A stretch of 39,856 nt of DNA from Deltaproteobacteria bacterium (lineage in GTDB: Bacteria > Desulfobacterota > Syntrophia > Syntrophales > JAFGIO01): positions 1 through 39,856 of the forward strand of contig JAFGIO010000065.1 of NCBI GenBank assembly GCA_016929555.1, given 5' to 3'. A program made the translations under genes and the position numbers. A model generated the notes under the pieces. That model saw nothing but the letters and a program-made list of their open reading frames with translations, ran no database searches and was not told where the DNA came from. Shown one piece after another: positions 9,423-15,317 of the stretch (its first letter is position 1; each line of letters begins with the position of its first letter).

Positions 9423-9884
9423 TTATCGATCTTCGTCATCTTCCAGTTTCTCTATATCTGCCTGATCCTGCTTGGAGTTCCTCATCCTCTTGAGCCATAT
9501 CAGATCTTTCTTGTTCGCAAGCATGACCCTTCCTTCTTCCGACTCCGCCTCCACAGCAGCTTTTACTATTTTTCTCGCCTCTTCGTCTTTCGCAACGAGG
9601 ATGTCGATCAACAGTTCATCCTCGGGTGCCTCTACCTTCAAAAAGGGGAGTAGTTCAATGCCCACGTTCTGGAACGTCCAAAACGATGCTGATTCAAAGT
9701 ATCCCTTGTTGCCAAGAATACCTTTCGCTGGATCGAAATCCTCGGAATCAACAAGAAGGTCAATATCGCGGGTAAAGCGCGGCTCCGTATAAAATGCCAT
9801 CGCCACCCCGCCCACAAGGGCATACTTCACCTTCAGCTTCTCAAACTGCGTTACCAGCCTTTTGAAATCCTCGAACACATTCAT
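9423..9884 (-). CDS. Orphan AbiEii-type nucleotidyltransferase-fold protein
   Basis: 153 residues. KYALVGGVAMAFYTEPRFTRDIDLLV contains the GG and DxD metal/nucleotide motifs of the polymerase-beta superfamily as used by AbiEii/MNT-type toxins and related proteins; a lysine-rich C-terminal part (LANKKDLIWLKRMR) is typical of this group. No AbiEi antitoxin or HEPN partner is next to it, so its role as a toxin is unproven. It is the most distal minus-strand gene of the integron array and is separated from the MazF cassette by the group II intron fragment. The ribosome site is weak. Confidence 0.75.
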   Translation of the reverse strand: MNVFEDFKRLVTQFEKLKVKYALVGGVAMAFYTEPRFTRDIDLLVDSEDFDPAKGILGNKGYFESASFWTFQNVGIELLPFLKVEAPEDELLIDILVAKDEEARKIVKAAVEAESEEGRVMLANKKDLIWLKRMRNSKQDQADIEKLEDDEDR

Positions 9885-9907
9885 GCCGTTTTCCGTAGGG
9901 CTATCGA

Positions 9908-9950
9908 AAAGCGCACCCGGAGCGGCCCAGCGGGCCGCGATCGGGTGGAG
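9908..9950. other. attC-like hairpin next to the group II intron fragment
   Basis: A compound inverted repeat: CACCCG (inner arm GCGGCCC, loop AGC, GGGCCGC) CGGGTG, with unpaired bases between inner and outer stems. This resembles the folded bottom strand of an attC site. The intron's 5' end follows a few bases later after ATTTT. No core box remains on the intron side, so an ordinary terminator hairpin is an alternative. Confidence 0.45.
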
Positions 9951-9957
9951 CGATTTT

Positions 9958-10545
9958 GTGTACGCCCGGCATGGGCGTGAACTTATAAGGTGAAAGTTCC
10001 CTGTATGTGAATCCTGTCGATGATTTAATCATTGACACAAGTACTAGCCGAAGGCAAGGGCGGAACCGTGAGGACCGTCCGAAGGAAGCCGGAGTGCAAA
10101 GCTGTGAGTGAAGCCTGTCCCGGACCTGATCCGGGAAACAGAAACAGCATACAAGGCTGAGTCTCCGGACAAGTCAGCACAACATGACAAAGCCCTGGAT
10201 TCGGGAGATACGGTAAATGCTGCGTTTGCATAGTCACAGTTCACGTTCTTATCCGGGGAGACCTGCCCGGTTGGCAACTCCGTAGAGAGTGGCACCCGTC
10301 ATGGCAACATGCCGTGGAACCGGACAGGAGTCAGCAGAGGCCATAGTAGGCGCAGGACGTTGCCAAAAGGCTGCATGGCAACTGGAAACGAGCCCGGGGA
10401 AGAGAAAGACCGGGAGGTCTCATCCCGCTGAAGGACCCAACCCAAAGTAGAGAATTCGCCCATATGTGCTCCGAAACGTGATGAACCCGAACGGGTGAGC
10501 GGAAAAGGTCGGGCGCGACGTAAGGGAAAACGCATGCTCAAGGAT
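9958..10545 (+). mobile_element. 5' fragment of a group II intron (no reverse transcriptase, no domain V)
   Basis: It begins GTGTACGCCCGGCATGGGCG, a 5' end close to the group II GUGYG start followed by the first domain I stem. Characteristic group II segments follow: AAGGTGAAAGTTCCC, CTAGCCGAAGGCAAGG, GGCAACTCCGTAGAGAGTGG and CCGTGGAACCGGACAGGAGT, the last usually near the start of the intron-encoded protein. No reverse transcriptase frame and no domain V/VI hairpin are found before the MazF gene at 10740, so it is a 3'-truncated remnant that cannot splice. It lies antisense to the cassette genes. The exact 3' limit is uncertain. Short open frames in this segment are intron RNA, not genes. 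Confidence 0.72.
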
Positions 10546-10659
10546 AAACTTGCAGTTGTCGCCTTCTTTTTAAAGAGCTATGAGTTATGCTGTATCCGGC
10601 TAAGGCTCGACATTCTTTGGGGACCGCCAGCTCGGCCGCAATCATGTTATCGATATCTA

Positions 10660-10745
10660 TTTTCATGAACGGTAATCAATGTTTGGATGCATACACTCGA
10701 ACTGTGCAGTGTATCTTTGGCATCCGCACCAGTGGGACGTTAACC
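10660..10745 (-). other. Degenerate attC-like site after the MazF gene
   Basis: On the minus strand GGTTAAC (10745-10739) overlaps the mazF stop codon TAA, as an attC R'' box would. A bulged hairpin follows: GGATGC, five unpaired bases, ATACACT, loop, AGTGTAT, GCATCC. The far core box is only GATTACC, so recombination competence is doubtful. Nothing else is recognised between 10546 and 10660. Confidence 0.4.
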
Positions 10746-11078
10746 GCCGATTATTTCATTTAGACCTTCAATAATTAAAGAAAGCTGGTCATCGGATGCA
10801 GTTGCTATTTTCTTCCCAATGCGTTTTATAGAAAGTGTGCGAATCTGGCTGATTTTAACCCAGGATTTCTTCGGTAGATTTTTTTCTGATAGCTCCAGGG
10901 TGAGAGGATAACCGGCTCGTTGAGGTTGGCTTGTCAGCGCAACAGCGATTACTGTCCCCGATCTTTCGTTGAAAACGTTGTGGCTCAAAATGAGAACAGG
11001 ACGCAACCCGCCCTGCTCACTTCCGATGACTGGATTTAAATCAGCCCAGTAGATGTTCCCCCTCAATATGCCGGCCAT
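10740..11078 (-). CDS. mazF: MazF/PemK-family endoribonuclease toxin
   Basis: 112 residues. [31 protein letters not shown] is the PemK/MazF beta-barrel core with the conserved RP motif, and [24 protein letters not shown] carries the catalytic-site threonine/serine strand. Members cleave mRNA at short sequences and are neutralised by the antitoxin encoded upstream. The start at 11078 overlaps the antitoxin stop by 16 bases, indicating translational coupling. The stop codon lies within a core-box-like GGTTAAC. Family assignment is firm; cleavage specificity is unknown. Confidence 0.92.
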
Positions 11079-11305
11079 TCTTCCAACTCCGATTTGAAAC
11101 CCTCTTCAGCGAAAAACTGTTCAAAATCGGGATCAAGTTTTGCGCACTCTTGAGCTAAACGGCTTTTTTGCATTCGAGTCAATTTCTCCATCACCGCCTC
11201 CTGAATCGCTTTACTTCGGTTAGGAAAAATATTGGATTTTACAAGCATATCAAGTTTTTTTACCATCTCATTATCTAATGTAATAGCTATTTTCGAAGCA
11301 CCCAT
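11063..11305 (-). CDS. Ribbon-helix-helix antitoxin paired with MazF
   Basis: 80 residues: [38 protein letters not shown] is a ribbon-helix-helix DNA-binding domain, followed by an acidic tail ending [20 protein letters not shown], which probably occupies the toxin site. An in-frame ATG at 11311 lies only two bases from the GGAGG, whereas ATG 11305 is eight bases from it; 11305 is chosen. A perfect inverted repeat at 11319-11339 lies immediately upstream and is the expected autoregulatory operator. Confidence 0.9.
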
Positions 11306-11318
11306 TTTCATTACCTCC

Positions 11319-11716: not shown

Positions 11717-11777
11717 CCCCAATAAAAGCTCACCGAGGCGCGGTTTTTTGCGCATCCGGTGCAGCGACTCGTTACCC
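11717..11777 (-). other. attC site of the Phd/ParE cassette
   Basis: The R'' box GGGTAAC (11777-11771) contains the parE stop codon. The stem pairs GCT-g-CACCG with CGGTG-AGC, leaving one extrahelical G, and then GCGC with GCGC around an A-rich loop. The distal core is a poor ATTGGGG. R'' is the exact complement of the GTTACCC that begins this cassette at 12432-12426. Confidence 0.7.
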
Positions 11778-12071
11778 GCTGTCCTTTTCAGGTTCATCAG
11801 GTAGCTGGGCTCCATGCCATACAGCAACGATCCATACGGTCTTATCCTTGATTCTATAGAAAAAACGATAAGGCCTTACAATTACCTCGCGAAAAGGTAA
11901 GTCCGGGAACTCCGGTAGCAGTCTTCCCGACTCGGGAAACTCCCTAAGACGGGAAAGCGATTTCTCTGCCTTTTGGCGAAAGCTTACCGCCGCCGAGGGA
12001 TTGTCTTGGTGCATATAGGCAATAGCTTCAATAAACTGGCGGCGAGCTGTGGGGGTAAACAGGATTTTCAA
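11772..12071 (-). CDS. RelE/ParE-family toxin
   Basis: 99 residues. ILFTPTARRQFIEAIAYMHQDNPSAAVSFRQKAEKSLSRLREFPESGRLLPEF is the two-helix start of ParE/RelE toxins, and REVIVRPYRFFYRIKDKTVWIVAVWHGAQ is the sheet with conserved arginine and tyrosine. ParE members poison gyrase and RelE members cleave ribosome-bound mRNA; the sequence is more ParE-like but this is not decisive. It overlaps the antitoxin stop by four bases (ATGA). The stop codon is embedded in the attC R'' box, so gene and recombination site are packed together. Confidence 0.9.
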   Translation of the reverse strand: MKILFTPTARRQFIEAIAYMHQDNPSAAVSFRQKAEKSLSRLREFPESGRLLPEFPDLPFREVIVRPYRFFYRIKDKTVWIVAVWHGAQLPDEPEKDSG

Positions 12072-12425: not shown

Positions 12426-12492
12426 GGGTAACGGCGAGTTGAGCGGTTTGATGGCAGGCTGCCGGCGAATGCGCTCGAACGATATGTTCGGC
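12426..12492 (-). other. attC site of a gene-less cassette
   Basis: 67 bases from R'' GCCGAAC (12492-12486) to R' GTTACCC (12432-12426). The stem pairs GTT-c-GAGCG with CGCTC-AAC, leaving a single extrahelical C, the hallmark of attC strand choice. The final TTACCC belongs to the following Phd/ParE cassette. Confidence 0.78.
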
Positions 12493-13925: not shown

Positions 13926-14036
13926 TGGAAAGTAAAATATAAACCCGAAATCAGGCATGATTTAGCTTCCATCATTGGGTTTTTTGTTAATAAAGGCTAA
14001 AAATCAAGCTGGTAAAATACGGAAAAAAATCCTTTG

Positions 14037-15317
14037 ATGCTCGATGACAAGCTGCCGGAGTTCCAAAAGCACCTTCTGGAAAAGAATCTGGTCCCGGCTA
14101 AGAACGTGCCGTTCTATGCCAATTGGGTAAGCCGGTTTCTCGATTATGCAAGACGCAATGAATTGTCCGCCTTGGAATATCGGGAATCTACGGTTTTGGG
14201 TTTTTTGGATTTACTGAAAAAAGACAAGCATGTTCTGGATTGGCAGCACCGTCAGGCAAATGATTCTATCATGCTTTATTATTTTAACTATCTTAACGAG
14301 ACAGATGCCCGATCGGTAAAAGCTTTATCATCTGGTAGCGTGCAGGAAACCATTCAAGAAACGAGACGCCTGATTCGCCTGAAACATTATTCATACAGCA
14401 CGGAAAGAACCTATCTCCATTGGATCGAACGGTTTCTCGAATATGCCAGGCAAACGGGGGGAAAAACAATTTCCGAGACCGGCGAATCCGATTTCAAGAA
14501 TTTCCTCAGCCATCTTGCCCTTAAACAGCGGGTTTCCGCTTCCACGCAGAACCAGGCCTTTAACGCGGTTTTATTTTTCTTCCGACATATCCTGGGAAAA
14601 GAAGCGGGAAATCTTGCCCATACCGTCCGCGCAAAGCGAGGGAAGAAACTGCCCGTGGTCTTTTCTGTAGAAGAGGTTAGACGATTATGGGCCTGTATGA
14701 CGGGCAGGGATTTGCTCATCGCCGGGCTGATCTACGGTGCGGGGTTGAGGCTGATGGAACTCGCCCGTCTGAGAGTCAAGGACATAGATTTTGATTTGAA
14801 TACGGTAACCGTCCGAAGCGGCAAAGGTGATAAGGACAGGACGACAATCCTGCCGGCAAAGGTTAAAGATCTCCTTAGGAAACACTTGGTCGAAGTCAAA
14901 AGCCTGCATGAGCGGGATCTTTCCCGAGGATACGGCGAAGTCCATCTTCCCGATGCGTTGAGCAGAAAATACCCCAACGCGGGCAAAGAATGGGCCTGGC
15001 AATACGTTTTTCCTGCCAGCAATCTTTCTGTCGACCCGCATGGCGGCAGGGTGGCCCGCCATCATATCAGCGACTCCGCCATCCAGGAGATCATAAAAAA
15101 GGCCGTCAGGAAGGCCGGCATTCCCAAACACGGCTCGGTGCATACGCTGCGCCACAGCTTCGCGACCCATTTGCTGATGAACGGCGTCAACATCCGGGAG
15201 GTGCAGGAGTTGCTCGGCCATAAAAACGTGGAAACGACGATGATCTACACGCATGTGCTGCGGGATATGTCCAAAGCCCCGAAGAGCCCGCTGGATCTCC
15301 TTCTGGAAGGATCGTAA
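14037..15317 (+). CDS. intI: Integron integrase with duplicated N-terminal core-binding domain
   Basis: 426 residues (427 if TTG 14034 is used). Numbering from the TTG, the tyrosine recombinase residues are R239 (GAGLRLMEL), K264, H370 and R373 (HTLRHSFATHLL), H396 (LLGHKNVETT) and Y405 (MIYTHV). Between the arginine and HxxR lies the IntI-specific insertion: LPDALSRKYPNAGKEW, WQYVFPAS, then DPHGG and RHHISDSAIQ. XerC/D lack it. IntI1 has 337 residues; the extra 90 are a second SAM-like domain. Residues about 1-90 repeat the pattern of 105-190 (YANWVSRFLDYAR versus YLHWIERFLEYAR). It recombines attI and attC sites. The ribosome site is weak. Confidence 0.93.
   Translation: MLDDKLPEFQKHLLEKNLVPAKNVPFYANWVSRFLDYARRNELSALEYRESTVLGFLDLLKKDKHVLDWQHRQANDSIMLYYFNYLNETDARSVKALSSGSVQETIQETRRLIRLKHYSYSTERTYLHWIERFLEYARQTGGKTISETGESDFKNFLSHLALKQRVSASTQNQAFNAVLFFFRHILGKEAGNLAHTVRAKRGKKLPVVFSVEEVRRLWACMTGRDLLIAGLIYGAGLRLMELARLRVKDIDFDLNTVTVRSGKGDKDRTTILPAKVKDLLRKHLVEVKSLHERDLSRGYGEVHLPDALSRKYPNAGKEWAWQYVFPASNLSVDPHGGRVARHHISDSAIQEIIKKAVRKAGIPKHGSVHTLRHSFATHLLMNGVNIREVQELLGHKNVETTMIYTHVLRDMSKAPKSPLDLLLEGS

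Follow-up and report, generated by a model that had tools for sequence, protein, structure and literature searches.

Does the group II intron remnant that lies beside a hairpin in the cassette array of a Syntrophales integron record an insertion into an attC site, and what kind of intron left it there? The window (the whole stretch of DNA analysed, 39,856 nucleotides) is a single contig, G000:C42, of genome G000, which comprises 3,074,372 bases in 285 contigs and is 88.14% complete. An integron integrase (TIGR02249, 401.7 bits over 14352-15299, cut-off 265) stands beside a cassette array, which identifies the locus as part of an integron. To the left of the integrase, the minus strand carries small, toxin-antitoxin-like genes (Gp49/HTH, BrnT, ParE/Phd, PemK/RHH, and nucleotidyltransferase). 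The protein of a neighbouring gene had no match in viral contigs, and an outward promoter was dropped from consideration, as no sigma-70-like site was called between 9300 and 10800. The features of the locus are collected in Table 1.

Table 1. Intron fragment, target site and integron genes in the window
Feature	Position	Strand	Basis
Fragment assigned to the group IIC-attC introns, ORF-less, 5' end intact, cut 8 bases into domain V	9960..10628	+	Rfam, relatives, alignment
Domains I-III (ribozyme backbone)	9960..10349	+	91-93% identity to protein-bearing L031/L103/L156, also L005
Domain IV module of the ORF-less family: N-terminus relic (AEGPN...MNPNG), junction, C-terminus relic (LKDK...FKEL*VMLYPAKAR)	10350..10620	+	Relatives, domain IV tree
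Domain IV 3' half with family-specific junction helix	10482..10628	+	Model R1, 128.6 bits
Domain V, first eight bases (GGACCGCC)	10621..10628	+	Alignment to complete copies
Beginning of a putative cassette gene (ATG at 10667, MKIDIDNMIAAELAV) abutting the cut intron	10629..10667	-	Read from sequence
attC remnant on the bottom strand: R' core mutated to CTATCGA (9901-9907), hairpin 9905-9958, TTGT end 9956-9959	9898..9959	+	Motif, fold
Cassette gene after the attC remnant, nucleotidyltransferase / AbiEii-like	9423..9884	-	Domain match
Cassette: PemK/MazF-like toxin and ribbon-helix-helix antitoxin	10740..11311	-	Domain matches
Integron integrase gene, divergent from the cassettes	14034..15317	+	TIGR02249, Phage_integrase

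The initial annotation had described a group II intron remnant adjoining an attC-like hairpin and antisense to the cassettes. This description is borne out by two Rfam matches on the plus strand (RF02001, 80 bits at 10062-10247, and RF01998, 50.1 bits at 10293-10371) and by the compound hairpin immediately upstream; with the cassette genes on the minus strand, the orientation is that expected of IIC-attC introns. Of the span first given to the fragment, 9958-10545, the 5' start stood with a correction to base 9960, where the flank reads ...ATTTTGT|GTACGCCCGG, while the 3' end had to be moved about 80 bases further, as the intron similarity reaches 10628 (L035 is 74% identical over 10383-10628). 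In the same-order search, the similarity of relatives begins at window positions 9953-9958 in many alignments, and the fragment was matched in 20 of 60 genomes, the window's own counted, which exceeds chance. The fragment is thus 669 bases long and breaks off after the first eight bases of domain V, with domain VI wholly absent; RF00029 had no match in the window. In complete relatives, domain V continues past the cut point and is followed by domain VI, which ends near CTACCCGAT, and the 3' exon beyond begins nearly always with T. As domain V is missing, the fragment is taken to be catalytically dead, and the window copy would be able neither to splice nor to move. The deletion junction probably lies at 10628/10629, and since a minus-strand reading frame starts directly beyond it, the same deletion appears to have removed most of a cassette gene as well.

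The class of the fragment is assigned via protein-bearing relatives. Its domains I-III are 91-92% identical to those of the protein-bearing sister introns L031, L103, and L156 and 85% identical to those of L111, a sister whose protein contains RVT_1 and GIIM domains and, among solved structures (PDB), is closest to the GsI-IIC reverse transcriptase (470 bits, against 352 for 7uim and 158 for LtrA); both points argue for class C. Neither of the outcomes that had been named in advance as speaking against an attC insertion, namely a class that does not use attC or hairpin targets and a 5' end tens of bases away, occurred. The window copy retains relics of both protein ends alone, and in its genome (88% complete) neither a match to RVT_1 nor, with the L111 protein as query, any intron protein was found, for which reason it is filed as a fossil of an ORF-less derivative. 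Pairing of EBS1 with IBS1 showed no offset clearly above shuffled pairing among 108 copies.

The target is most probably an attC site of a recognisable subfamily, judged by its motif and fold. The hairpin (9905-9958; MFE with flanks, -32.8 kcal/mol) shares its layout with that of L111, and the motif CCGGAGC...GCGATCGG occurs within it at 9917, 15 nt upstream of the intron. This motif has 16 matches on both strands of 1,838,122 bases: it is located 14-15 nt upstream of 7 of 133 intron 5' ends (window included) and also in 9 intron-free attC sites; L111:3114 is an uninterrupted twin of the invaded site L111:449. According to the excerpted text of PMC7923331, IIC-attC introns take TTGT/T on the bottom strand of attC as their insertion point and are antisense to the cassettes. 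The exon in the window ends with TTGT, which marks the insertion point; the 3' exon base of the site cannot be read, because that side is deleted. Taking all loci together, the exon ends with TTGT at 82 and with TGGT at 22 of 130 intron 5' ends. The upstream flanks of these 130 introns fold with a mean of -22.2 kcal/mol, compared with -16.3 for shuffled flanks and -12.3 for upstream stretches; an R-like box with AAC is present in 82/130 of them versus 36/127 controls, and most fold into the bulged stem typical of attC bottom strands. The window attC carries ATC in place of the core AAC at 9903-9905 and has lost R'' beyond GT, this partner having been split by the insertion and then deleted. 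With the class known through its sisters, an attC-subfamily target, an antisense orientation and a TTGT/T insertion point, the proposal that the fragment is a fossil of an IIC-attC insertion is well founded at the level of sequence.

For the remaining sites of the array, the expected strand yielded 14 candidates in the generic attC scan and the opposite strand 9, while ten shuffles yielded 10-29. As this is no better than chance, no numerical claim is made for the other attCs, and the invaded site is the only one in the array well supported by number. The attC alignment A2, in which left arms were placed inconsistently, served as the basis for no model. A clean attC-like site, GGGTAAC...GTTCGGC, with intact cores and one bulged stem base, is visible at 12426-12492, in an array where the scan as a whole does not exceed shuffles. 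Another attC-like hairpin (AAAAGCTCACCG...CGGTGCAGCG) is located at 11717-11779; its core, as read by eye, is damaged, with CAAT for the expected AAC. Truncation of the intron had been suggested as the cause of lost core boxes elsewhere in the array, an idea that is not supported: no intron adjoins this hairpin, so the decay of its core needs another cause.

Two properties of the fragment are absent from the initial annotation: its ORF-less form and the membership of its domain IV in a distinct family. The relics of both protein ends show that the intron protein was lost through an old internal deletion. Among the 39 introns in which both a 5' end and domain V are present, a sample biased by assemblies that break more at longer copies, nine rows (eight places) measure 1,554-1,965 nt, 25 measure 437-909 nt and five are shorter. 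Some of the short forms are separate, simple losses: in L005 and L030 the protein gene has been plainly deleted, their ends sharing 92-96% identity with protein-bearing introns, and L008 and L012 are also clearly of this kind. The intron in the window is of a different type and has its domain IV junction in common with L035, L044, L059, L144, L137 (two copies), L088, L113, L096, and L075.

A model of the domain IV 3' half (R1, built from 10 sequences) gives the window 128.6 bits and members more than 100, versus at most 67.3 for the other loci analysed and 80.1 for the best non-member in a searched genome (G155:C296). Scores above 100 bits were obtained in 8 of 155 same-order genomes, three of which (G125, G065, and G142) are absent from the model, and every other match in that search remained at or below 73.6 bits. 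Besides Syntrophales, the deletion-bearing domain IV was found in Desulfobulbus rhabdoformis DSM 8777 (four copies), in Desulfosudis oleivorans FI88 (three copies), and in Geobacteraceae STCSWMC_37. At an E-value limit of 1e-20, the phylum sample holds it in at least 2 of 395 genomes, a lower bound given that eight candidates were scored per genome. The fold of the 3' half has 28 cells with changes on both sides, compared with 11.9 in shuffles (0/500 as high), and a covariation score of 0.338, compared with 0.166 when shuffled and 0.035-0.103 for slid structures; pairs with a double change do not stand out (8 vs 7.1, with 198/500 shuffles as high). As only ten related sequences are available, covariation is support for the fold, not proof. 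The most variable helices span the deletion junction, which protein-bearing introns do not have.

The two halves of the intron differ in their affinities. In the tree of domains I-III (28 rows, 8 of 25 inner branches well supported), the ten members of the family lie scattered, the window grouping with the protein-bearing L031, L103, and L156 (98/96) and L059 with L111 (100/98), and forcing the ten into one clade costs 129.8 log-likelihood units (p-AU 5.1e-6). Left out of this tree were fragments below 430 nt, L006 (the same place as L031), L037 (N run), L052, L075, L080, and L113 (internal deletions or long branch), and L042, L060, L090, and L138 (domain III end anchor absent). In the domain IV tree (17 rows), the same ten members form one side with 100/99 support, part of which could reflect the different constraint on coding sequence, as the protein-bearing introns were shortened in script before their comparison with ORF-less copies. 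The identity profiles intersect at domain IV, near position 400. For L059, identity to L111 is 0.84-0.96 before the crossing and 0.45-0.76 after it, whereas its identity to L165 is 0.77-0.85 and then 0.78-0.88; the window is 0.86-0.96 and then 0.63-0.75 identical to L103, compared with 0.64-0.88 and then 0.75-0.78 to L165. Recombination of domain IV, at its start, onto several ribozyme backbones fits these patterns best.

The family shows signs of mobility. In D. rhabdoformis DSM 8777, three copies that are 97.5-98.7% identical occupy three sites with unrelated flanks. Two of the 10 family-holding genomes encode a protein that shares at least 70% identity with the L111 protein (73-86%): G155 and, in two pieces, G142, the latter being the only such case among the eight order genomes with the family. 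Proteins at least 80% identical were found in 4 of 155 order genomes (without a 112-residue piece in G106), one with a stop and one split. With the L111 protein as query, no intron protein was detected in G000, G001, or G069 at E up to 1e-3, which is weak evidence of absence, as assemblies may miss repeats. In the window's own genome (88% complete), the search for a complete copy that the initial annotation had advised yielded none, and neither a related protein-bearing intron nor a partner reverse transcriptase was found; the only other trace is a fragment, L002 (G000:C164:16337-16526), which is 86% identical to window 9964-10144 and is located beside an attC-like hairpin.

Most probably, the locus records an IIC-attC insertion by an already ORF-less, mosaic intron whose later 3' deletion left a dead copy in the attC. 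A group IIC-attC intron would first have lost its protein gene by internal deletion. The resulting mosaic would combine domains I-III from the protein-bearing L103/L156/L031 lineage with domain IV from the ORF-less family of Syntrophales, Desulfobulbus, Desulfosudis, and Geobacteraceae. Presumably by means of a reverse transcriptase acting in trans, the ORF-less intron would then have inserted into the folded attC bottom strand at TTGT|T, antisense to the cassettes, and a later deletion would have removed domain V except for its first eight bases, the whole of domain VI, the 3' exon half of the attC and the greater part of the adjoining cassette gene. The position, target, antisense orientation, two deletions and mosaic pattern are legible in the aligned sequences; the mobilisation in trans and the order of events are probable reconstructions, and the domain IV helix may serve mobility.

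Other histories explain less of the evidence. The hairpin could be a common intrinsic terminator of the kind usually targeted by group IIC introns, which would make the attC irrelevant: its ends are A-rich and T-rich, and group IIC introns are reported in excerpts of PMC4424553 and PMC7923331 to insert after terminators. The T run, however, stands apart from the main stem instead of directly following it, the terminator scan called no terminator at this hairpin, and the hairpin is located within a cassette array next to an integron integrase. Its attC-subfamily motif, moreover, is spaced 14-15 nt from the intron, just as in other invaded attCs, and recurs in intron-free ones, so that a terminator target is highly improbable. 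Scarcely credible, and the least probable of the alternatives, is the decay of the protein gene in place in the window's intron, with a coincidental likeness to ORF-less introns. The lack of an intron protein in the genome and the second fragment on contig C164 would be compatible with it, but the junction region reaches 128.6 bits with R1, while the analysed loci outside the family reach 67.3 at most.

An unlikely history, although less so than these two, is that the ORF-less domain IV arose repeatedly by the same deletion in different protein-bearing introns, with no recombination needed. The separate simple deletions in L005, L030, L008, and L012 speak for it, as does the scattering of the family in domains I-III. 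Yet the members of the family share an insert as well as a covarying helix that spans the junction. A further point against repeated identical deletions is that the 5' half of domain IV, which the deletion spared, departs from the kin of its backbone too: in L059, this half is 0.58-0.76 identical to L111, in contrast to 0.84-0.96 for domains I-III, and 0.78-0.88 identical to L165. Beyond the single locus, it is quite possible, and is proposed here tentatively, that integrons of several orders host non-autonomous introns in which a structured, ORF-less domain IV is recombined onto the resident IIC-attC backbone and so matches the local reverse transcriptase. If this is true, such introns would be an integron counterpart of SINEs with exchangeable parts, and a long-lived ORF-less family with a covarying domain IV, spread over several backbones and several orders, would imply the persistence of non-autonomous intron parasites in bacteria. 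They would also remodel integrons, as every insertion splits an attC. Whether recombination keeps such introns matched to resident proteins becomes a testable question.

Three known systems are closest to the fragment. Like the group IIC-attC introns (S.ma.I2 and relatives), it is located antisense at TTGT/T of an attC bottom strand (PMC7923331, in excerpt), and its sister introns encode a class C type protein; unlike them, it has no protein gene, retains only the start of domain V and nothing of domain VI, and its domain IV stems from a distinct ORF-less family. With the ORF-less bacterial group II introns, it has in common the lack of an intron protein of which relics remain. Those introns are described in the consulted part of PMC4424553 as uncommon among bacteria and as almost always occurring together with related protein-bearing introns, whereas here 25 of 39 near-complete introns fall within 437-909 nt and a close protein is encoded in only 1 of 8 order genomes with the family. 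UHB.F1, from a hypersaline cassette array, is likewise a truncated, antisense IIC-attC intron (PMC7923331, in excerpt), but it is truncated on its 5' side and keeps a protein sequence with frameshifts, while the window copy is truncated on its 3' side and is ORF-less. An increase of ORF-less introns in certain genomes is reported in PMC8919778, in whose available text a search found no mention of attC. No description of an ORF-less IIC-attC family was found in the titles and abstract openings searched, a scope outside which the work of Leon and Roy and of Quiroga lies, and the novelty of the family is claimed only against the literature searched.

The exact 32-base 5' pattern of the intron occurs in at least 114 stretches among genome contigs and on one viral contig, and the hosts, by record title and among the matches listed, include Desulfobacterota, Nitrospirae, Verrucomicrobia, Riflebacteria, and Gammaproteobacteria. 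The IMG/VR contig IMGVR_UViG_2917587430_000001, which is classed as viral, carries L163, a complete ORF-less intron 705 nt long. IIC-attC intron sequence was also observed on two contigs binned as archaeal (L132 and L153, Candidatus Syntrophoarchaeum MAGs), where a binning error or a transfer is possible. In Desulfocicer vacuolatum DSM 3385 (L092), two intron 5' ends are arranged head to tail, the second beginning at the end of the first.
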